From positions 4,379,747-4,443,746 of the forward strand of contig NC_079488.1 of assembly GCF_020520425.1 (NCBI RefSeq): a stretch of DNA of 64,000 bases, in the 5' to 3' direction. The position numbers were made by a program, and so were the translations under genes. The notes beneath the pieces were generated by a model, which saw only the letters and a program-made list of their open reading frames with translations, was not told the DNA's origin and ran no database searches. Source of the DNA: Spinacia oleracea (taxonomy: Eukaryota; Streptophyta; Magnoliopsida; Caryophyllales; Amaranthaceae). Positions 2,970-62,586 of the stretch are shown piece by piece; the stretch's first letter is position 1, and each line of letters opens with the position of its first letter.

Positions 2970-3441
2970 ATTTACCAAACTAATGCCCATTTTAAACTTA
3001 TTTCTCATTTTGCGTCAGAATGACACTTATTTATCAAACTATCGTTCATGTAGGTTTGGGTAAAATTAATCCCTTTTTAAAAAAAAAAAAATTCAAACTA
3101 AAATCGCTATCCCAGATAGCGGTTTACTAGTATAACAACTATCTCATATAGGGGTTTTACTAGTATAACCGCAATTTCAGATAGCGAATTTAGGACAAAA
3201 ACAACTACATGTGTAGCAGTGTTTTATGACCAAAAATAGCTATCTCAGATAGCGGTTATACCAGTAAAGCCGCTATCTCATATACCGATATAACCGCCAT
3301 ATGAGATAGCGGTTTTAGTCTGTTAAAATAAAAATAAAAACGAACGTAGCTCCGATCCTACATGGACGGTAGTTTGGTAAATAAGTTTTATTCCGACGCA
3401 TAATGAAAAATAAGTTTTAAATGAGCATTAATTTGGTAAAT
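2970..3441. mobile_element. Foldback element with about 85-bp inverted arms and internal palindrome array
   Basis: The left arm (2970-3054) starts ATTTACCAAACTAATGC and ends CATGTAGG. The right arm (3357-3441) is its inverted copy with some ten mismatches, starting CCTACATGGACGG and ending TTTGGTAAAT. The roughly 300 bases between hold repeated copies of GCTATCTCAGATAGC-like palindromes alternating with ACTAGTATAAC. No coding capacity and no convincing target duplication are visible. It is probably a foldback or MULE-like MITE whose transcript would fold into a long hairpin. Confidence 0.7.
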
Positions 3442-7000: not shown

Positions 7001-10000
7001 CGATTAATTATCTCAAGTCGAACAAGCCGTCGGTGTATTTACAACATTACCCAGAACAAAAGCTTGTTTTGAGGAATAATACATGGTTTGAGCCATAAGG
7101 AACAAGACAGGGTCTATATTTATGCAGAAGGAAGCTTTTTATGCAACTATGACTAACCAAAGCCAAATTAGATGATTTGAAGGAAAATAGATGCCGTAAG
7201 GAACAAGGCATCCTCCATATCAATAAGCAGAATGGATACTTGCAATCCATTTTTCATGGTTTCGTAATGTTTTTGGTTTTGAACCCATTCTCAAAAGAAA
7301 CGATGTGTTTGATCTCACAGAGGAAATAAGGACATTTGAGCTAAGAATCCTCAAAGGAGTTACTTGAAATTCTGTTTTCTCTAGCGCATTGCACGTAGCT
7401 ACGAGAGAACCGAGTCTTGTATTTTGAACTTGATGTGTGCATCTGAGTCAACCCAGAGAACATTCTCATTTATGCTGTCCTGATGAGAAGCATCATATCT
7501 GATTGTTATTGTCAATCCATTGGCATTGCGTATATTTGGTTAATAGTTAGAGTTCTAATTCTAAAGAACTCATGATTTATTGAATGATCTAGCATAGTAT
7601 GTGCTGACTGCTGAGGTCAGAGTATTGTCTTGAGCAGTGACAAGAGCTCAAACAGACCTCGGAGGACCGAGCCCTTTTTGAAGGGATGTTGTCATGCAGG
7701 AATAGCTGAAAAATTATAGTGTTGTGACTTGAAACTTTTGCATTAACCTAAAGTAGTCTTAACATAAGCTTTTAAGAGGAAACAAAATTTGCTTGAAAGT
7801 AGAGTCTAAGGAAGCTAAGATTTCTGAAATATATGGCCATGAGTTAGAAAGGAAAAACTGACTGTTTCTGAAAGGTCCAAGATTATTAATCTGTCGACAA
7901 AAGGAAAGAGCTGATGCTGTAGGCAAAACCAAGGTGGCATACTTTTTGGTTTCCCATTCTCAGACAGAAAAAGAACTCAAATTTAGACTCATAAGATACA
8001 GAAGAAAAGAAGTCTGGCTAAGGACTAACAAGATAGGATACTGAGAAATGTAGTTCTAATATGAACCTAGTATTGTGTACTGGAGGCATCAGGATATAAA
8101 TAAGGATCTCTTTGGAAGGAGCTCTTTTTTTCATATTTCTTGTTAATAGTGTAGGACTGTAGACCAGAAGAAAGAAAGTATTCAAGAAAGTGTAGTAGGA
8201 TGTGTAGAGATCTCATGATTCAATTGACTAGTTTTAGGCCCTGCAACACACTTTAATCAAACTCACATAATGGTGTTATTGTGGTAATATAAAAGTTGTA
8301 GGGGCAATGAAGTAATCAAGTGATTGACCATTGATGAATGGGGAGGTTATTAATAGTAAAAAGTCAAAAATTAAGAATTTACGGAGGGTCATGAAAGATA
8401 TGTATTTTTAAAAAATGAAAATTTAAGGGGTGGACAAGTGGCACGCAAGTTTTCCTGTTTTAAATATTATTATTATTATTATTATAAATTTTTCTGTGAA
8501 TATGGAGGTGAATTCATTGTTTACAGTTTTGTTTGAAATATCAAACTCATTGGTAACAGATACTATTAACGAAGAGACGGATTGACATAGTGACCAATAA
8601 CTGTGCATCAAATGAAGGTGTAGTTGTTTTTGTTAGTCTGCTGGAGTTGTTGAAAGGAATCGTAATACTAACATAGATATGTATTTGCAGAGGATATTGT
8701 AATCTGGAAGCTCTTTTACACCATTAGTCAGCCAGTCTGTATACACTATGTGCTTCATAGTTGGCATCATTTGTAACAAACTGAAAGTATTCTATGTTTT
8801 TGGGAAGTGTCATAATCTATTCCTTGAATATAGTTTATGGGCTCTGAGTGAATTGTTCACTAAGGTTGTGTCTTTTTCCAAGTGCAACTAGTTAGAACCT
8901 TTGTTAACATAGCATAATCGAGAGTTAGATCTGATAATATGGCTATTGATGATCTTAATTTTGATGGTCTGTACTTGAAATATTCTGCAGGTAGGTTAGA
9001 GGCGATGTTGCTAGAAGCTAAGGGTTGTTGGGAAGAGGCAGAAAATGCTTACTCAAGTCTTCTAGAAGACAACCCACTTGATCAAGTAAGTTTTAATTTG
9101 TTTTGGTTGACTAACACCCTCCTGTTTCTTATCACTATTTCGTCTATTGGGCCTTTTCTTGTAAATTATTTTGTCTGGTACAGTAGATAGTTAAGCAGTC
9201 AATTTTTGAGGACTTTTTCTTTTTAACCAATCAAATCAATATATTTTCTTTGTAGGTGGTCCATAAAAGAAAAGTGGCGATGGCAAAGGCTGAAGGCGAT
9301 CTTCTTAAAGCCATTGAATGCCTTAGCAAGTATCTAAAAGTGTAAGGCTCTTGCATCAGAGAATTGTTTATGGCTTTTCTCTACTTTGTTACTCCTTCCA
9401 ATTGAAATGATAGGCCGTACTTACTTTTCTGTTCAAGCCTTTTGAACTTTGACTTACTTGGAGTGCTTTCTATAAGTATATTATACAAGTAGCAATCTTC
9501 TCTTTGGAAATAAAAAAAAATTCTTTTCCAAAATAAGAGTTATACACAAGATAATTAGATCCAGCGTATCAGTCTGTACACCCAAGACCCAACCAGGCAA
9601 ATCGGTATTTTTAACAACTCAAGTGGGGAAATTCTTAAAAGCAGATCCCTTAGTTTTATCACTGCTTGATATTTCCACCCGATGATGGATACTCAAAACA
9701 ATTTCTTTCACTATTTAACGAGTATATTCTCTGTTTCTTCATCAAACATGCTGAAGTTTCTCTTATTTCTTTCTGGACTGAAACTGCTGTTTATGCTTTA
9801 CTGTTCAGCATCTTCCCCTGCTTTTATTTCATTCTGTGTGATAAGCAAGCTATGATCTCTTCCTAATTATCATAATATCATCTAGCCCGGTGATCTGTGT
9901 CCATCCTCATAGTCGCTGACTCGCTGCCACTTATCATTACTACCCTCATTCAGAAAGTAGATGCTCATGTTTTTCACTCATCTCTAAACGGAACAAAAAA

Positions 10001-51004: not shown

Positions 51005-51359
51005 TGAAGGAAATTATGCCCTTGGTCCAAGTATACATTTAATGATAAGTCTAATAAATGCGGTTCAGTATTAATTAACAAGTTAATAATTCAGTGAGAT
51101 CAAGTGAGCTGAATGCCTAGCTAGAGGCTGCTTCAGTTCAAGTGGAATGAATGATATTAATCCACAACTTACTCTTGACTGAACCCGTAGTGTCACATAA
51201 ATAGTACGTAAACGGATCAAGTATTTAATGACATTAAATACTCCATCTATGGTTATTCGGAATCGACGGATCTTGGTTTCAGTGGGAGCTAAGATCGTCA
51301 AAGGCAAGTAAATGAATACTCCGGAAACGATGATATTGCCGGAAACGGAAATATGGATC
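51005..51359 (+). mobile_element. Older Copia-type LTR, left part
   Basis: It starts TGAAGGAAATTATGCCCTTGG and runs in the sense direction of the family (the inner element's LTR on the minus strand begins TGAAGGAAATAATGCCC). It is visibly diverged from the inner LTR, and is interrupted at GGATC by the inner element. It continues at 61700. The base block before it ends AACAG, but the partner target copy is not in the window. Confidence 0.8.
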
Positions 51360-52699
51360 TGTTAGGTTATGATACATATGACATTACATAGATCATGCGG
51401 AAACAACCATTAACCCAGGAAACATATTATTTACACATAATCATTTAGCATAGTTTAGATGCATACTCTTTGTTGCGTGCCTTCCCTAGCTGCGCCCGAA
51501 CCGAACAAGAACAAGTCTTTTAGGACTCCAAGTGTCGTCCCTCCGTAGAAAGTCCACAGCACGTCCGGATCCGCCTTAAGATTGACCAACTAGAATCGCC
51601 CTTAAGGTACTCAGAAAATTCGGCACTTTTGGGGCAAGATGGGTGTTTGAATTTTCTCTCAAAAAACTCACTTTTGAATACTTTGAAACTTGTATATAAA
51701 TTATGACCCCTAGGCCTTTATTTATAGAGTTATGGAAAAGGAATCGTAATCCTAGTAGGATGCGAATTAATTGGAATTAGAATTCTACATGAATTCTACT
51801 TAATCAATTTATCCAATAGGAATAGACATTTAATCATACACTGACTCTTGCAGATTCAGGAATCTCGCATGAGCTCAAACTCACACACACACGGCAGCCA
51901 CAAGGGCTGCCCACGCATGCGAGCAGCAGCCCACGCAGCGCGGCCCACGCATGCGCGGCCTTGTGCGCGCTGGGCTGTGGCGTGCGTGCTTGCTGGGCGA
52001 TGGCCTGGCTTCGTGCTGGGCCTTCGTCCGGCAGGCCTCGTCCGATGCTAATTCGTACGATACGCTTCCGATTAAATTTCCATTTCCGGAATCTATTTCC
52101 GATACGAACAATATTTAATATTTCCGATTCCGGAATTAATTTCCGTTTCGAACAAATATTTAATATTTCCGTTTCCGGAATTATTTTCCGATTCCGGTAA
52201 TATTTCCGATTCTGACAATATTTCCGTTTCCGGCAATATTTCCGATTCTGGTAATATTTCCATTTCCAACAATATTTTCCGATACGTACCATGTTTCCGT
52301 TTCCGGCAACATCTACGACTTGGATAATATTCATATTTCCGATACGATCCATATTTCCGTTTCCGGCAATATCATCGTTTCCGGAGTATTCATTTCTTGC
52401 CTGTGACGATCTTAGCTCCCACTGAAACCAAGATCCGTCGGTTCCGAATATTCATAGATGGAGTATTTAATGCCATTAAATACTTGATCCGTTTACGTAC
52501 TATTTGTGTGACCCTACGGGTTCAGTCAAGAGTAAGCTGTGGATTAATATCATTAATTCCACTTGAACTGAAGCGGCCTCTAGCTAGGCATTCAGCTCAC
52601 TTGATCTCACTGAATTATTAACTTGTTAATTAATACTGAACCGCATTTATTAGACTTAACATAGAATGCATACTTGGACCAAGGGCATTATTTCCTTCA
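51360..52699 (-). repeat. 3' LTR of the inner Copia element
   Basis: This LTR is identical by eye to the one at 60360-61699. In plus coordinates it has a TATA-like motif on the minus strand (51719-51726), a GC-rich part at about 51885-52045 and an array of TTTCCGTTTCCGG-type units at about 52065-52385. Short open frames here are low-complexity and not genes. Confidence 0.9.
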
Positions 52700-52713
52700 G
52701 TCTCCCACTTGTC
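52700..52713 (-). other. Polypurine tract of the inner Copia element
   Basis: On the minus strand the bases just before the 3' LTR read ACAAGTGGGAGAC. This is the purine-rich form usual for plant Copia elements (AAGTGGGAGA) that primes plus-strand DNA synthesis. Confidence 0.75.
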
Positions 52714-53879
52714 CTTAGGGACAAGTGTGCATTTCCTAATTCCTTTGTCGCTCGATGCTTGCTCTTGAACATAAGGTAAGAGTTGTCATCCTTATTATGT
52801 CCAGAGGTGTTCCTCGGTTTCAGAGTTCAACTGATCAAATAAACAGATAATCATAGCCTATGATTCATCCGAGCACGGCCATGCATTTCACAGTTTCTAG
52901 CTCTCCGAGTGGCCTTGTACAACTTTTAAGCATCTCATCCCGATTTATGGGAGGACAATCCCAATCTTGCGATCTTGAGATTAGACTTCGTTTGATAGGT
53001 GATTACCTGAGCGTTGCCTTTATAGCCTCCTTTTACGGTGCGACGGTTGGTCAACGTCAAAGCAACCAGTTCTCAAACAAGTAATCTCAAATCACTCAGG
53101 TATTGAGGATTTAGTGTCTAATAATTTAATGAAATTTACTTATGACAGACTTTCATCTCTTACAGTAAAGTTTCATAGGTCTTGTCCGATACTAGTCTTC
53201 CCAAAGTAAGTATCTATGCAAATGATTATGACATTGCCATGTCCACATAGTTCAAGAAACAGAACTACTAGTCATCTTGCATTCTAATCGTCTAACGTTT
53301 TCTATGCGTCCAATTTTATAGAAAACTCCGATTAGGGACCATTTTCAACCTTTGACATTCAAGTTCACTTGATAGACATTTCTTAGTCACAGGACTGGTC
53401 CTGACAGTCTATCTTGAATATATCGTCAAATTTGAAGGGACTCATCATTTAATACTAAACCAAGATTAAATGGAATATGAAAATACATTTCATATATGAT
53501 AAATGTTCAACCCCAATGTTTTACAACCATGGGCCTCAAACCCATCTTCTAAAACAGTTCATGGAATTCAAAGCTATGCTTGATTTCCAGTGCTACAATG
53601 TGAGTGTTGCTTCTCACTTGTTGCATAGGTTTAGTTATCATGCTTTGCCAATCTTAATATCCTTTTCATCGAATATTCTTCGAGATATGATGATAAGATC
53701 TTTTCGAGTTTGTTTATTATGTGATCTAGTCTTTCTTACTTCGATGGTGGTATTACTCATTTTGCAATGAAGAACCATCAAGTTAGCAGACGTTTTTCTT
53801 GCTTCAAGAGTGGTTCTACGCATTTTTCAATGAAGAACCATCAAGCCAGCAGATAGGTGATCTACCCAAGTTCAGTGAA

Positions 53880-53990
53880 GAACTTTAAACAACCCTGTTT
53901 TATTGCTTCTTAGGCAATAATTACTTTTACTTCAACTGTATAGGCTGCTAGTGATGCTTTGTTTGGATTTACCTATCCAAGCAGTTCATA
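53880..53990 (-). pseudogene. RNase H remnant of Copia pol
   Basis: On the minus strand, GKSKQ in one frame and EVKVIIA, a stop, then EAIKQGCLKFFTELG in another resemble the end of Copia RNase H (the family pattern KSSKQ then EAEYIA then EA then LG). Stops and frame shifts break it. A related 65-bp tandem duplication lies next to it at about 53723-53858. Confidence 0.5.
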
Positions 53991-54917
53991 GATATGTGGA
54001 AGACTCTCCAACTATATCTTAGAACATAGAAATTAATATTTTAATTTCCCACGCAACAACTCATGGTCTCCAATCCATGTTGCCATTTCAAAACACGATG
54101 CTCTATAGCTCGTCCTTATCAATGGTTAACTCCAAAGGGTCTTGCTTGATCCTTTGCCAGTGTTTATGCGTGTAGCATCAATATTTAGCATATCTTTATT
54201 TCCTTGAATCAAGAACTATTCCTATGTACCTTTTCAAGTACCATAAGTATTCTTGATCTCAATCTAGTTGATCTTCACTTAGACCAATAGAGATTGGTAT
54301 ATGTTCGTCATGGCTAAAGTCATACGATACGTTTTTGGCGATCCTCATATTATATCATACATGATAAATTCTTTTGCAGAATAATTCCCAATTGAATTCT
54401 ATTCATGTAACTTTAGCTCATTCAATTTTAGTAGATACTGAATCCAGCTAAATTCTTTGACATATAATATAGGTTAAGAATCTCATTTAGACTCTTTGAT
54501 GTTTAACTTAGTAAATGCTTATACATAGTTCAAACATTCTTTACTTAGATTTATTCACATGGGTCGAATATCTCCAATGGAGACTTTCGTGTTTGATTTA
54601 GTAAATGCCATTACTTAATCTAAAACAATATTATAAGATCTTTGTAAATAGATCTTAATACCCAGTATGTACTAAGTTTCGCCATGGTCCATCATTGATG
54701 AATAATTTCAAATCTAAGTCATTAGCATTTGAATGTTATTTCACAATAGAGAGATATGTGTGTTATACACATAGGACCAAATAAGTTTTTATGTACTCCC
54801 ACTAAACTTCTTATATATCTATAAGAATCATGTATATTTTATGAAACTAAAATACTTATTAGCTTCACTAAATATAGTTCTAATTCCCAATTGCTTGCTT
54901 AAATCTGGACTTAGATT

Positions 54918-55244
54918 TCATAAGCTAGCTTTCCTTTTCAAGCATTTATTTGGATCCACAAATCCTATGACATACCATGTACATAGTTTATTCCAACATT
55001 TGATTGAGGAATACGTTTTGTCATCCAATTGCCATATGTACCAATATGCAATCATTGCTTGAATTATAGACTTAAGCATTACGATTTTGCATGAGGTTTC
55101 AACACAATCCATGCCATGAATTTGCTTGTAACCTTTAGCAACTAATCTAGCTTTGTGTGTGAACACAATTCCATGTTTGATGGTTTTTATCCTTAAAACA
55201 AACTTGCAACCAATAGGTGTGAAACTATTCTTGCAAATCAACAA
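54918..55244 (-). pseudogene. Reverse transcriptase remnant of Copia pol
   Basis: A 108-residue frame on the minus strand contains KARLVAKGYKQIHGMD, then ET, MLKSI and IWQLDDKT. This is the start of the Copia reverse transcriptase domain (family pattern RYKARLVAKGY with a later QMDVKTAFLNG). It jumps directly to GFVDPN, so the central part is deleted. The catalytic YVDD region is absent. Confidence 0.75.
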
Positions 55245-58200
55245 AATTTCAATTTTGTCATCAAAACATTGAGTATGTTTTATGGCCTCTAACCATTTAA
55301 AACATTTGAGTCTATATATGGCCTCTAACCATTTTAGGGAATCTAGGTTTCGTCATAGCTTTCTTACAAGTCATAAACTCATTAATCTACATGATAATAG
55401 TTTGACTGTAAGTTGTAGGTTTCTTCACTATCGAATAGAAGAATCTCATAGTTTCATTGACCAGAACTCTATGTTTCCTTACTATCTAATAGAAGAATCT
55501 CATAGTTCCAGTGACTTGAACTCTATGCCTACTTGGGTATAGAACATCAAACAATAGAATATCAAATAGCCACTTGAAAGTCCTTTGAATATTCTGTTCT
55601 CCTTGAAGCACTTGTAAAGTCTTCTAAGAGATGTCTATTCTTTAAAGCCACTTCTAAAGTCCTTAAAGAATAAGTTCGGATTTTCTGAAGCACTTCGAAA
55701 AGCCTCCGGAATGTCCGTTTATGTTTGTTGTTCGTCTCGAAGACTTTCGAGGTCTATTTTCTCCCACTTGTCATTTTGGAAACGAATCTCCAAAAGGACA
55801 TTATTTCGAGCAAACAAACATTATGTTCAAAAATTTGTGGTAGAAACAATACCCTTGTGTCTCATTTGAATAAATCACAATGAAACATATATCTATACTT
55901 GGGCCTTAGTTTGTTGAATAACAAACACTAAGCTCCCACTGAGTTTAGCAACTCTCTAGATATATATTTTATGAAAAGTTATTCTGAATTTACTTTTCAA
56001 TAGCTTTGACGAATTTTGGTTTAGTTTGGTGGTAGTTGAGCATTTTGTTTTAGAAATTATAGGAAAAGTCTTTATGATTCATCATTAATCGAATCAAGTA
56101 CTAATTGACTTCGATTATTCCAACTAAGATATGCCATATCTTATGGACCTAGATTGTGAAATTACACCACACAACCATTGATGATCATATTTGGTCTCAA
56201 GTAATCATCAACATGATCTAACCTAGATCTTTATGATTTCTTGCCAAGTGGATTTTATACTTCTGAATCTTTGAACTAGCCAAACAGATTCAACTTATAT
56301 CACATTTGAGTAAATAAACCTATATTCACTCAAATCCATGTGAAATAATAAAGTCATAAAACCTTTCTTTAGCTTTGAACTCTATCGTCTAGGCGTTCTA
56401 ACAATAGTTCATATTCTTTGTTACTTTCAACAAGTAAGACTAGCTTGTCTTAAGTTGATCTAGAAATCAACCAACTTTCAAAAGTCCACTTAAAATAGAT
56501 CTTGTGAATGTTAACTTGTTGATATGGTCTAAGCAACAATGCCAAAGATTAGTGGAACTCAAATCAAGGGTTTGATTTGAACCTATTAAAGTTCTTTAAA
56601 GAGTTGTTTGTTTTAATCAAGCATATTGACTCAACCAGTAATTGACCATTTTATTCAAATAAACAAACAAACAAGCATTGTTTTTGTTCTTCTGAATGTG
56701 AGTCTTTCTGTGTTTGAAGCAGAAATTTAGGTATGCTGATTATGGAACAAAATAGCCATTGAGTTCCAGCCTTTGAAAGGACTTAAAACAAACTAGATGA
56801 CCCTACAACTAATGTAGCATTGCCATGCTTCATTTCCCACTTGTAGGTCATTAGTGTATCCTAGCTTCCATTTTTTGAGTTATTACCGAAGTAAGAACCT
56901 CAAGCGGTATATGATACCAAGGAAGTTTGATTGCTAGGTCACTTCTCTTTAAACATAAATTTATAGGTAGAAACGGAATCGTAAATTCCTTTCATTTGTT
57001 CCTCGTTTTCCTATTTCTTGTACCCTTTCTTATAGTCTTAAGAATTGAATTCTTTAGTGTTGACTTTTATACTTTGTTAGACATGTCCAATGTCACCAAC
57101 AAGGTTCTTTACCATTTTAATTTATGTTGAATATTCTGTTTCAACTAGATGATCTTACCAGAAGCTTCTAAAGTTCTCTAAGCATCGATCTATTCGAATG
57201 TCTAGGGACTAGACTCATTCGAGAATTAAATGGACAAAGATATTAGGTTGTTAACCATTGGTAAAGCTGAGCGTATTAAACTCAATGCTTCATGATTTCA
57301 AAACTACAGTGTATTTTGAATTCACAAGCACCAATTGGTTTGCCATTCGATTTTGATATTCGAAAACAACCATACAAGTCGATATAAGAAACGTACATTT
57401 TAAATTGCTCACTTTCTCTCTTTTCCGTGAATCGTTCTTGGATTCACTACCAATCGAGGAAATTTACTGTTACCTTTCTAAAAGGATTTACTGCAGTGCA
57501 AGACATTTAATTATAAACAATAATTAAAACATACATTGAAGCATGCAAAGTCTAAACATTTATCATGAATAATAACTTGAAATTAAAGCAACCATGCAAT
57601 TCAAACAAGTTATTAGCATTTTATTCGATTTTATTGTTCCGGCAGGTGTGAATAAAATGATTCCAAGACCCTAAAACCATTGAAGAATTAAGCACAGTTT
57701 GTCGACTCAATTCTAAAACATTTTAGGTAAGCAAAAGCCTTTTGCTAATAGTCTAGAAACTACTCTTGGTTGATAGGTACGTCTAAGAACTTATTAGGTA
57801 AACCTATCGTTTTTGCCACGACATAAAAGGACTCCTTACTTATATCGTTGAGTTTCACCAAAACTAACATGTACTCACAATTATTTGTGTACCTTGCCCC
57901 TTTAGGACCAATAAGTAACACCTCGCTGAGCGAAAACTATTACTAGATTGATGTAAAGGATATCCAAGCAAGTGTATATTTTGGCATGGCACCTTTTAAC
58001 TCAATTTTTAAGTTTGGAACTTAAGGCTCTTACTATGTTGGTTAGATTTTAAGTGAACTAAAATCCTTAATCATGCAACATAATCAAGCTTTTGATCTCA
58101 TGCATTTTAAGACATATTTAAAGCAATAAATAACTTAAAACATGCATAAGATATTTGTGATCTAGTATGGCCCGACTTCATCTTGAAGCTTTGACTTCAA

Positions 58201-58969
58201 AGTCCGTCTTGAAAATCTCCGTGGGAGGCACCATTTTCTTCAAATAGGATAAGCTATAACTAATTACAACTATTTGATGGTTCGCAGACCATATTTGAAT
58301 TGAAAAATAACTTTGGTACTATAGACCAATTACATTCAAATTAATGGTACGCAGACCATATTTTCTATCTTATTTGGGCCATACTAGTCACTTCATAACC
58401 TGCAAAACAGTACATATACAATATATACCATTCACCCATTCATTATCATGAATGGCCCACATAGCTGGTTAGTAAAACACATTATGCATCATGTAAACAT
58501 TTGCAGCAATTAATCAAGGGCACCAATAATCTACCAATTATTCAGTCCTTATTAATTCTAATCAAGTTGTTTTAACCTTAAGGATTTGTAGACCTAATCA
58601 AGAGTTTATGACTAAAAGCACTCCCACTCAAACCAATAAATTCATATGCTTTACTAATTTTAAACATAAAATTGTATTTCTAGTCTAACCGGAAACATAC
58701 AAATTTAATTAAAATTTAAAGCTCATATAAATTTATAATTGAATCCAAGAATTTAATTTAATTCAGTCGCATTTAAATTAATTCATGATTTTAATTTTAG
58801 TAAAATAATTAGAATAAATTCCATTTATTATAATTATAATATTCAAAATTAAAATCCAAGAAATTAATTCAAATTATTAATTTTAAAATTAATTAAAATT
58901 ACGTGAACTGAAACTTTCAAATTAAACATTCAAAACGATCTAATCGAAACGCAAACACCCTACGCGTTG

Positions 58970-59575
58970 CACGCCCATGGGCCGTACGCACACAGCCATT
59001 GCTGGCCATGTGCGCGCAGCCCATGCGCTCGTCGCATAGCTGCTGCTGTCCTATCCGCAAGCCTCCGCACAGCGCCCACCGCACGCGAGCTATCGCTCGC
59101 AGCGCGCGCGCGTTACCGCGCTCGCTGGTGCGTGAGATCGCTCGCTGGTGCGCGCGAGCCATCGCTCGCTGGGGCGCTGCATCGCTCGCTGGTGCGCGCG
59201 AGCCATCGCTCGCTGGCGCGCGAGATCGCGCGCTGGTGCGCGCGAGCCATCGCTCGCTGGCGCGCGAGATCGCTCGCTGGTGCGCGCGAGTGATGCTGTG
59301 CGCAGCGCTCGTGGCACGCGAGCTTGCGCTCGTTGCGCACGAGGCTGCGCGCTGTTATGCGAGGCAGCGCGCGCTGTGGCGCAGCTCGCTTGCTGCCCAC
59401 ACGCGACTGCCTTGGCTCGCCCCTCGCCCATGCCCATCCGTTCATTGCTCGTGGCACACGACACAAGGCAGGGCTGCTGCCTTGTGCTCGTGCACTACGC
59501 CCTTGCTCATTGCATTCGTGCCGCACGGGCGACGAGCTCCCTTGCTCGTCGTCGCATGCCCGCATTATACAACAC
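58970..59575. repeat. GC-rich tandem array in the Copia leader region
   Basis: This CpG-dense island sits in otherwise strongly AT-rich DNA. Its core (about 59095-59295) alternates units such as CGCTCGCTGGTGCGCGCGAG and CGCTCGCTGGCGCGCGAGAT, giving a composite period near 44 bases. It lies between the primer-binding site and the first pol traces, in the place of the leader or gag. Alanine/arginine-rich frames on both strands are by-products of composition. Confidence 0.75.
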
Positions 59576-60342
59576 CCCTTAAGGGTAACACGAAGCGTCC
59601 ATTGCTTCGTGCGTGCAAGTTATTTGAACGAATCGCATAAAAATTTAAAATTTATATTTAAAATTAATGACAAATTAATAAATATTATTAATTTCATAAT
59701 TTTAGGGCGAAAAAATCGAAAATTTATTATCCAATTGATTTCCGATTGATATGGATTCAAGTCTAGGTCATAAAAATTTAAAATTTATCGTAAATTTACA
59801 ATTTTTATGGTGGTTTTTAATCATAGGTTTCTAATTAAATTACAATTAATTATGAAAATCAAATTAATTCTAAATTATTCTAATTTTCAACAAATTAATC
59901 ATAATTACAAATTAGATTGCATAATTAACAAGACTAGGCATTCAAACTTGTTAAACATATGCAGTAGGTCAATCAAAAATTCAAGATTTATCAACAAGAA
60001 TCGCAAATATTTAATTTAACATCTTAAATTTACGAAATTTTGCATCCGAAAAACTAAAACCTTCGAAAAGTCATAGTTAGGCTTCGAATTTGAGAATTCT
60101 GGGTTCGGCAGAAAAATACTATTTTTGTCAAAATTTTAGAATGCCTTTTACATGCGGAATTGACACAAAAATCACTCAATTCGGATGAGTAATGAAGAAA
60201 CTGCCGAAAAACTGCGTACATATAATTAAATAAACGCAATTTGCAATTAATTAACAATTACGAAAATTAATCACCCCTTTTAATTCTTGCAAATTTGTAA
60301 TATTTAACCATGTTCATGCAATTTAGATTATGAAAATAATAA

Positions 60343-60358
60343 GGGGCTCGTGATACCA
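60343..60358 (-). other. Primer-binding site of the inner Copia element
   Basis: On the minus strand TGGTATCACGAGCCCC begins two bases after the LTR end. The first eight bases match the initiator-Met tRNA 3' end used by most plant Copia elements, and the rest matches imperfectly. It fixes the element's orientation. Confidence 0.8.
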
Positions 60359-60359
60359 C

Positions 60360-61699
60360 TGTTAGGTTATGATACATATGACATTACATAGATCATGCGG
60401 AAACAACCATTAACCCAGGAAACATATTATTTACACATAATCATTTAGCATAGTTTAGATGCATACTCTTTGTTGCGTGCCTTCCCTAGCTGCGCCCGAA
60501 CCGAACAAGAACAAGTCTTTTAGGACTCCAAGTGTCGTCCCTCCGTAGAAAGTCCACAGCACGTCCGGATCCGCCTTAAGATTGACCAACTAGAATCGCC
60601 CTTAAGGTACTCAGAAAATTCGGCACTTTTGGGGCAAGATGGGTGTTTGAATTTTCTCTCAAAAAACTCACTTTTGAATACTTTGAAACTTGTATATAAA
60701 TTATGACCCCTAGGCCTTTATTTATAGAGTTATGGAAAAGGAATCGTAATCCTAGTAGGATGCGAATTAATTGGAATTAGAATTCTACATGAATTCTACT
60801 TAATCAATTTATCCAATAGGAATAGACATTTAATCATACACTGACTCTTGCAGATTCAGGAATCTCGCATGAGCTCAAACTCACACACACACGGCAGCCA
60901 CAAGGGCTGCCCACGCATGCGAGCAGCAGCCCACGCAGCGCGGCCCACGCATGCGCGGCCTTGTGCGCGCTGGGCTGTGGCGTGCGTGCTTGCTGGGCGA
61001 TGGCCTGGCTTCGTGCTGGGCCTTCGTCCGGCAGGCCTCGTCCGATGCTAATTCGTACGATACGCTTCCGATTAAATTTCCATTTCCGGAATCTATTTCC
61101 GATACGAACAATATTTAATATTTCCGATTCCGGAATTAATTTCCGTTTCGAACAAATATTTAATATTTCCGTTTCCGGAATTATTTTCCGATTCCGGTAA
61201 TATTTCCGATTCTGACAATATTTCCGTTTCCGGCAATATTTCCGATTCTGGTAATATTTCCATTTCCAACAATATTTTCCGATACGTACCATGTTTCCGT
61301 TTCCGGCAACATCTACGACTTGGATAATATTCATATTTCCGATACGATCCATATTTCCGTTTCCGGCAATATCATCGTTTCCGGAGTATTCATTTCTTGC
61401 CTGTGACGATCTTAGCTCCCACTGAAACCAAGATCCGTCGGTTCCGAATATTCATAGATGGAGTATTTAATGCCATTAAATACTTGATCCGTTTACGTAC
61501 TATTTGTGTGACCCTACGGGTTCAGTCAAGAGTAAGCTGTGGATTAATATCATTAATTCCACTTGAACTGAAGCGGCCTCTAGCTAGGCATTCAGCTCAC
61601 TTGATCTCACTGAATTATTAACTTGTTAATTAATACTGAACCGCATTTATTAGACTTAACATAGAATGCATACTTGGACCAAGGGCATTATTTCCTTCA
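60360..61699 (-). repeat. 5' LTR of the inner Copia element
   Basis: This is the promoter-bearing LTR in the element's own direction. It is the same sequence as 51360-52699, including the TTTCCGTTTCCGG-type array (about 61065-61385). On the minus strand the 3' end is CCTAACA, next to the primer-binding site. Confidence 0.9.
60719..60726 (-). promoter_or_regulatory. TATA-like box of the Copia 5' LTR
   Basis: On the minus strand ACTCTATAAATAAAGG lies about 360 bases before the LTR end. It is the best core-promoter candidate, and the same motif is kept in the older diverged LTR (TCTATAAATATATG near 62367). The start site is not determined. Confidence 0.5.
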
Positions 61700-62586
61700 G
61701 GATCGTATCGGAAATATAAATATTATCTGAGTCGGAAACATGGTACGTATCGGAATATATTATCGGAAATGGAAATATTGCCGGAATTAGAAATATTGCC
61801 GGAAACGGAAATATTGTCAGAATCGGAAATATTATCGGAATCGGAAAATAATTCCGGAAACGGAAATATTAAATATTTTTTCGAAACGGAAATTAATTCC
61901 GGAATCGGAAATGTTAAATATTGTTCGTATCGGGAATGAATTCCGGAATCGGGAATTTAATCGGAAACGTATCGTACGAATTAGCATTGGACGAGGCTTG
62001 CTAAGACGAAGGCCCAGCACGAAGCCAGGCCGTCGCCCAGCAAGCCACACGCATCAACACACGCCAAAGCCTCGCCAGGCCCAGCGCAAGGCCAGGCCCA
62101 GCAGGCATGGCGCGCGCGCTCAGGGAATGGGCTGCGAGCTATGGGCCAATGTGCCGTGCAGCTCGCGTGGGCCGCGAGGCATGCGCGCGGGCTGTGCGGT
62201 GCTCGTACGGTGCTCGTGTGCGTGCTATACGAATCCTAAAGCTATCGGAATTCGTGCTATGATTAAATCCTAATCCTAAAAGATAAAATTAATTATTTAG
62301 AATTCTAACAGGATTCTAATTAATTAATTAGTATTCTAACAGGATTCGAAATCCTTTTCCATGGTTCTATAAATATATGCCTAGGGTCATAAATTTATAC
62401 ACGATTTTTTCAACAAGTATTCATACAATAAAAGCTGTGATTTTTGAGCAGAAAAATCAGTCACATTACTTTCCCATATTAGCCAAAAAGTATAGTACCT
62501 TAAGGGCGATTCTAGTTGGTCAATCTTAAGGCGGATCCGGACGTGCTGTGGACTATCTACGAAGGGACGACACTTGGAGTCCTAAA
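61700..62586 (+). mobile_element. Older Copia-type LTR, right part, truncated
   Basis: The LTR resumes at GGATCGTATCGGAAATATAA, with its own diverged CGGAAACGGAAATATT array up to about 61980. A GC-rich stretch and a TATA-like TCTATAAATATATG follow. It matches the inverted inner LTR as far as GACACTTGGAGTCCTAAA, then stops abruptly where another element starts. The missing end may lie beyond the window. Confidence 0.8.

Follow-up and report, generated by a model that had tools for sequence, protein, structure and literature searches.

BARE-2 of barley is a parasite of a related autonomous element of the Angela lineage, and the rice pair Dasheng/RIRE2 belongs to Gypsy. Among the systems closest to the locus studied here, the soybean pair SNRE/SARE consists of a non-autonomous long terminal repeat (LTR) retrotransposon and its autonomous partner, and amplification of the former is reported to have followed LTR swapping (Du et al. 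2010; see also PMC3701649). Dasheng/RIRE2 likewise joins a non-autonomous element to a putative autonomous partner, with chimeric elements reported (PMC5473765). Large retrotransposon derivatives (LARDs) are presented in PMC9033089 as LTR elements with an interior of more than 4 kb that is non-coding or recalls retrotransposon domains. Non-autonomous endogenous pararetroviruses of grasses share with their partners non-coding regulatory regions that recombination keeps alike (PMC5491270). Here we analysed a window of 64,000 nucleotides from Spinacia oleracea (NC_079488.1, positions 4,379,747 to 4,443,746), which carries a Ty1/copia element on its minus strand. This element is very probably a young non-autonomous copy with a long-dead core and the ends of a coding sister family, mobilised in trans with swapping of ends.

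The two LTRs of the window element match at 1340 of 1340 bases on base-by-base alignment, with 0 mismatches, 0 gaps and a spacing of 9000 b, and a perfect GGATC target-site duplication (TSD) surrounds them (Table 1), as read in the preliminary description. The primer-binding site and polypurine tract claimed there were also found next to the 5' and the 3' LTR, respectively, and because of their positions the element is read on the minus strand; we take the former to be of the initiator-Met type, and CAAGTGGGAGAC presumably serves as the polypurine tract. Paired TG..CA LTRs, a 5-b TSD and these two sites, whose identity we assume, are the hallmarks of Ty1/copia. At 1.3e-8 substitutions per site per year, the rate used in PMC6337768, zero differences in 1340 b give an upper 95% bound of ~86,000 years for the age of the insertion.

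The gag-pol core of this young insertion is wrecked. The longest sense open stretch of the whole interior (7660 b) measures 168 codons and lies in the leader, with none above 151 codons in the core. One of the six frames matched a Pfam model, RVT_2, below threshold (54918-55244, E 2.4e-7, 31.1 bits for a cut-off of 31.6); among the other five, two had only matches with E 0.21 and 0.13 and three had no match to Pfam. Using the proteins of coding relatives as queries, in five pieces, we mapped core remnants that follow the Copia order of integrase, reverse transcriptase and pol C-terminal end, and that hold 14 in-frame stops in all. An earlier reading of a broken RNase H is fair, while the "shortened" reverse transcriptase is rather a stop-riddled one; this verdict follows from the 8 stops in the reverse transcriptase homology, the 6 in the integrase pieces and the 25 residues left near the pol C terminus. 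As in a LARD, the interior exceeds 4 kb and has no functional gag-pol.

The window's own genome (894,210,420 bases in 242 contigs, of which C1-C6 measure 115-189 Mb each and ~879 Mb together) was searched with the LTR; 40 of 1156 candidates were scored, giving 41 matches, and 16 LTR pairs were compared with that of the window. Three further places (C5:10.53M, C4:59.95M and C3:23.8M) stand outside this set of 17 copies, and the single places C3:156.4M and C2:38.08M were left out of the comparison. All 17 pairs have perfect 5-b TSDs, each different, and 0-3 differences per 1339-1341 b. Seven copies, window included, have the dead core, each with its own perfect TSD and 0-1 LTR differences, and the window's 14 pol stops are present, 14/14, in 6/6 of the others. 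The parent copy was therefore already dead before these insertions, as had been proposed.

Dead cores are abundant. Two exact 60-base tags of the dead core occur 2,023 and 2,713 times in the genome and one tag of the coding core 3,598 times, with 0 occurrences of the reversed-pattern controls; since each tag was selected for its presence in every examined copy of its core type (7 dead or 10 coding), the counts are of exact tags and not of elements. On C1 up to ~22.3 Mb, the second dead-core tag was found 2,988-3,080 b from 33 of the 71 places of the first, from which, assuming independent loss of the two tags, we would put the genome-wide number of dead cores very roughly at ~5,800. A 401-b fragment of the dead reverse transcriptase reached full score at 34 of 40 scored places (window included), out of 269 candidates. 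One copy found in this way, at C6:5.86M, has the TSD CTACG and 1 difference in 1378 between its LTRs. Dead interiors differ from that of the window by ~1-3% in mosaic blocks, with stretches of 100% identity alternating with stretches of ~97%, which suggests that dead copies may recombine among themselves too.

The remaining ten of the 17 copies (10 of the 16 fetched pairs) have the same LTRs, leader and 3' end around a coding gag-pol core, and they are likely to be the coding partner postulated beforehand. Their longest sense frames range from 514 to 1,161 codons per copy (n=10). Pieces from two of them matched models for gag, zinc knuckle, Pol beta-barrel, pre-integrase, integrase, SH3 and RVT_2, with Retrotran_gag_2, rve and RVT_2 in the Copia order of gag, integrase and reverse transcriptase. 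LTR divergence is 0-0.75% among all 17 copies of both core types, the 3' 740 b diverge by up to 1.8%, and leaders of dead and coding copies differ by 0.9-3.0%. The two kinds of core are colinear, with 67-87% identity in their alignable parts only, and shell gives way to core abruptly, close to where the gag-pol open stretch begins and ~110 b past where it ends. Coding cores were also found in nested or array settings at the three places outside the set, C5:10.53M having the TSD TAAAC and LTR starts 21.3 kb apart. At G000:C3:23813196-23823100 an LTR-tail-coding piece is directly followed by another, which marks coding-family elements in nested or tandem arrangement. The coding-core pair at G000:C1:30777748-30778148, whose LTR starts are 8,391 b apart, has its core piece shifted by ~685 b and is a deletion derivative.

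The variants of the LTR are distributed over both cores. The first is found in the window and at C2:7.88M, 7.25M and 5.67M with dead cores, and at C2:6.95M with a coding core; the second, defined by three sites, at C3:91.0M (dead) and at C6:25.8M and C5:99.4M (coding); the third at C1:40.8M (dead) and C3:24.0M (coding), on the strength of just two common sites and ungrouped in the tree. The LTRs at C6:5.86M are of a fourth type, which differs from the window's by 3.2% and 14 gap runs and, besides this defining copy, accompanies 4 dead and 7 coding cores among 11 pairs. Likeness to the fourth type was judged on 641 b for 40 scored of 1682 candidates; 11 of 12 pairs were typed, the remaining pair belonging to the query copy itself, and 16 single matches fell outside the typing. 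The window-type LTR, recognised by an exact 296-b tag, accompanies 3 dead and 6 coding cores among 9 pairs, taken from 47 pairs among the first 100 of 328 tag places. One 401-b core piece was used to type the core of each of these 11 and 9 pairs. All four combinations of ends and cores exist, and thus ends and cores have recombined.

Trees of the same regions were compared with the core labels. Approximately unbiased (AU) tests rejected a single dead clade for the LTR (p 0.001) and for the leader (p 0.0005), and on the leader tree the core labels require 5 changes against a shuffled mean of 5.7, with 196-205 of 500 shufflings as low, so that they are shuffled-like. A coding partner with the same LTR and leader, and discordance between ends and core, are the marks of a pair with LTR swapping, and we are probably dealing with a LARD-type non-autonomous family and an autonomous partner that swap LTR and leader. 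An old dead sister might have gained modern ends once, as a single chance chimaera, followed by clonal spread with no further exchange; the dead cores, 94-100% alike to the window's in 250-b bins, are consistent with one origin of this kind. Such an account is unlikely given that each of four LTR variants is found with dead and with coding cores, that core labels on the leader tree cluster no more than shuffled labels do and that the AU tests already point to dead copies scattered among coding ones. One origin followed by repeated later exchange would fit these patterns better.

Other dead copies with different TSDs, together with the coding partner, support the proposal of a trans-mobilised family. 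In this family the gag-pol core was destroyed long before the window insertion, and the sister's working ends are kept, namely the LTR, the primer site, the 2.7-kb leader with its presumed packaging signals, the 3' end and the polypurine tract. RNA of the dead family would then be packaged, reverse transcribed and integrated, presumably by the sister's proteins. The established path for exchange of this kind is template switching between co-packaged RNAs, which would repeatedly swap the dead family's ends for those of the partner and account for ends that stay alike while the core decays. Because exchange by template switching needs shared particles, enzymes would be shared as well. We infer mobilisation in trans itself, with the supply of proteins, the co-packaging and the template switching, from comparison of the copies. 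The proteins of another Copia family could have done the same work, with the coding sister sharing its ends by descent only; this is unlikely, as recently exchanged LTRs and leaders, together with the common 3' end, imply that dead and coding RNAs would have met in one particle.

Gene conversion between the LTRs, initially named as the main alternative to a recent insertion, would let an old dead insertion with homogenised LTRs merely look young, and the identity of the window LTRs to those of other copies is something that inter-locus conversion could give. It fails because new TSDs surround a core that was dead beforehand: seven dead copies have seven TSDs and share 14/14 stops, so that the dead core has moved and was not just homogenised. 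Besides, LTRs agree within an element and differ between elements, and we consider conversion very unlikely. An artefact of assembly or segmental duplication, with a single locus repeated in the assembly, would go with the very high identity of the copies, but 17 different TSDs, interiors with mosaic differences and 2,023 occurrences of one 60-b tag make it highly improbable. Least credible of all is that the copies were autonomous at insertion and decayed afterwards, despite the coding copies with the same ends in the same genome, because identical stops at 14/14 sites in 6/6 copies, in elements whose LTRs differ at 0-1 positions, allow no time for decay.

Several points weigh against a young, trans-mobilised copy with exchanged ends. 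The 17 copies were picked by LTR likeness to the window, and their low LTR divergence is therefore partly selection. Of three copies picked by the dead reverse transcriptase fragment, only one has a clean LTR pair and TSD; in the other two only the 3' LTR is clean at the predicted place. A single unbroken frame is not present in every coding copy. Finally, core labels are clustered on the LTR tree, with 4 changes against a shuffled mean of 9.0 and 0/500 shufflings as low, a clustering that near-copies produce.

Purely local spread was suspected from five copies with the window-type LTR at 4.4-7.9 Mb of C2, and was ruled out because the exact 296-b tag occurs 328 times, also on C1. The tag is unevenly distributed: of its first 100 places, C1 has 40 over its entire 136.5 Mb and C2 has 60 between 0.7 and 39.9 Mb, so that the tag is ~5 times as dense in the initial 40 Mb of C2 as on C1.

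It is also conceivable, as a speculation with a small but real chance of being right, that the dead core is kept as a spacer of the partner's length, which would serve packaging and pairing with the partner's RNA for template switching, so that dead and coding elements would make up one freely recombining population whose ends are interchangeable. Compared with one coding copy, offsets of -425 and +395 b leave a net -30 over ~4.1 kb, and the 47 LTR pairs of one young-LTR listing all start 8,910-9,129 b apart; both hint at a spacer. Conversely, the dead lineage is only a single case, and since the coding-core pair on C1 has LTR starts only 8,391 b apart, shorter elements can form.

The element lies in an older LTR of its own family on the opposite strand which, with its flanks joined, aligns at 81% identity over 1261 columns. 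Three or more of the 17 copies, among them those of the window, C2:7.88M and C6:25.8M, adjoin or lie within older opposite-strand LTR sequence of this family.

Table 1. Features of the spinach element and its insertion site (positions in the window).
Feature	Position	Strand	Basis or detail
Left part of an older same-family LTR (insertion target)	51005..51359	+	
Target-site duplication GGATC, left copy	51355..51359	.	
3' LTR, 1340 b, TG...CA ends, identical to 5' LTR	51360..52699	-	base-by-base alignment
Polypurine-tract-like CAAGTGGGAGAC, adjoins 3' LTR	52700..52711	-	reverse complement of 52700-52711
3' shell, ~750 b	52700..53453	-	98.8-100% identity to six coding copies, three 250-b bins
Dead core, colinear with coding gag-pol, many stops	53454..57615	-	67-87% identity where alignable
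25-residue remnant matching the pol C-terminal end	53564..53638	-	E 2e-4
Reverse transcriptase homology, 8 in-frame stops	54624..55199	-	Pfam and comparison with coding relatives
Short stretches with homology to the SH3-like/after-integrase region	55722..55902	-	
Integrase/pre-integrase homology, two pieces, 6 in-frame stops	56198..56565	-	
5' leader shell, ~2.74 kb	57616..60359	-	aligned parts 96-98% identical to ten coding copies
44-b GC-rich tandem array within leader	59119..59290	.	
Primer-binding site, element sense GTGGTATCACGAGCCCC, adjoins 5' LTR	60343..60359	-	reverse complement of 60343-60359
5' LTR, 1340 b	60360..61699	-	base-by-base alignment
Target-site duplication GGATC, right copy	61700..61704	.	
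Same older LTR, right part, truncated	61700..62586	+	

Some further features of the element were recorded. The GC-rich leader contains, antisense to the element, an open stretch of 221-264 codons (58912-59637 in the window) in 17/17 copies with either core, possibly as an effect of composition only. Each LTR contains an 18/36-b minisatellite of AATATTTCCGATTCC-like units (52072-52331 and 61072-61331), which may be where the LTR length types of 1340, 1378, 1383 and 1411 b differ. The dead core holds two tandem duplications, with 63-b units at 53732-53853 and 54-b units at 55419-55527; such gains may partly offset its deletions relative to the coding core.

The pair is a strong new example of a known phenomenon and not a new kind. 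Compared with SNRE/SARE as set out in PMC3701649, it belongs to another family and another host, also exchanges leader and 3' end, and has a dead interior colinear with gag-pol. Unlike Dasheng, the window family has as its core a decayed Copia pol of about its partner's length. A title cited in PMC11963269 attributes "life without GAG" to BARE-2, whereas in the spinach element the damage extends to the entire core. The LARD category is defined by structure and not by lineage, and the element's interior is still recognisably colinear with pol; the grass elements of PMC5491270 are pararetroviruses, and those studied here LTR retrotransposons. Among the papers that literature searches on non-autonomous LTR retrotransposons in spinach and Amaranthaceae brought up, no title or abstract opening describes such a pair of dead and coding families.

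The pair probably belongs to the Angela lineage, as judged by abundance: PMC6337768 gives Angela as >70% of full-length Copia in spinach. In PMC7840529, Angela elements are reported at ~10-22% of Spinacia samples against ~0.35% in beet. In these two articles the sole "non-autonomous", in this spelling, refers to DNA transposons in one article and to a Helitron in the other. If the pair is indeed Angela, a sizeable share of the Spinacia expansion would consist of parasitic copies that code for nothing. The thousands of dead and coding copies in one genome would then offer a gauge of how often LTR-retrotransposon RNAs recombine, and from the same copies the length and sequence needs of a passenger RNA could be measured.

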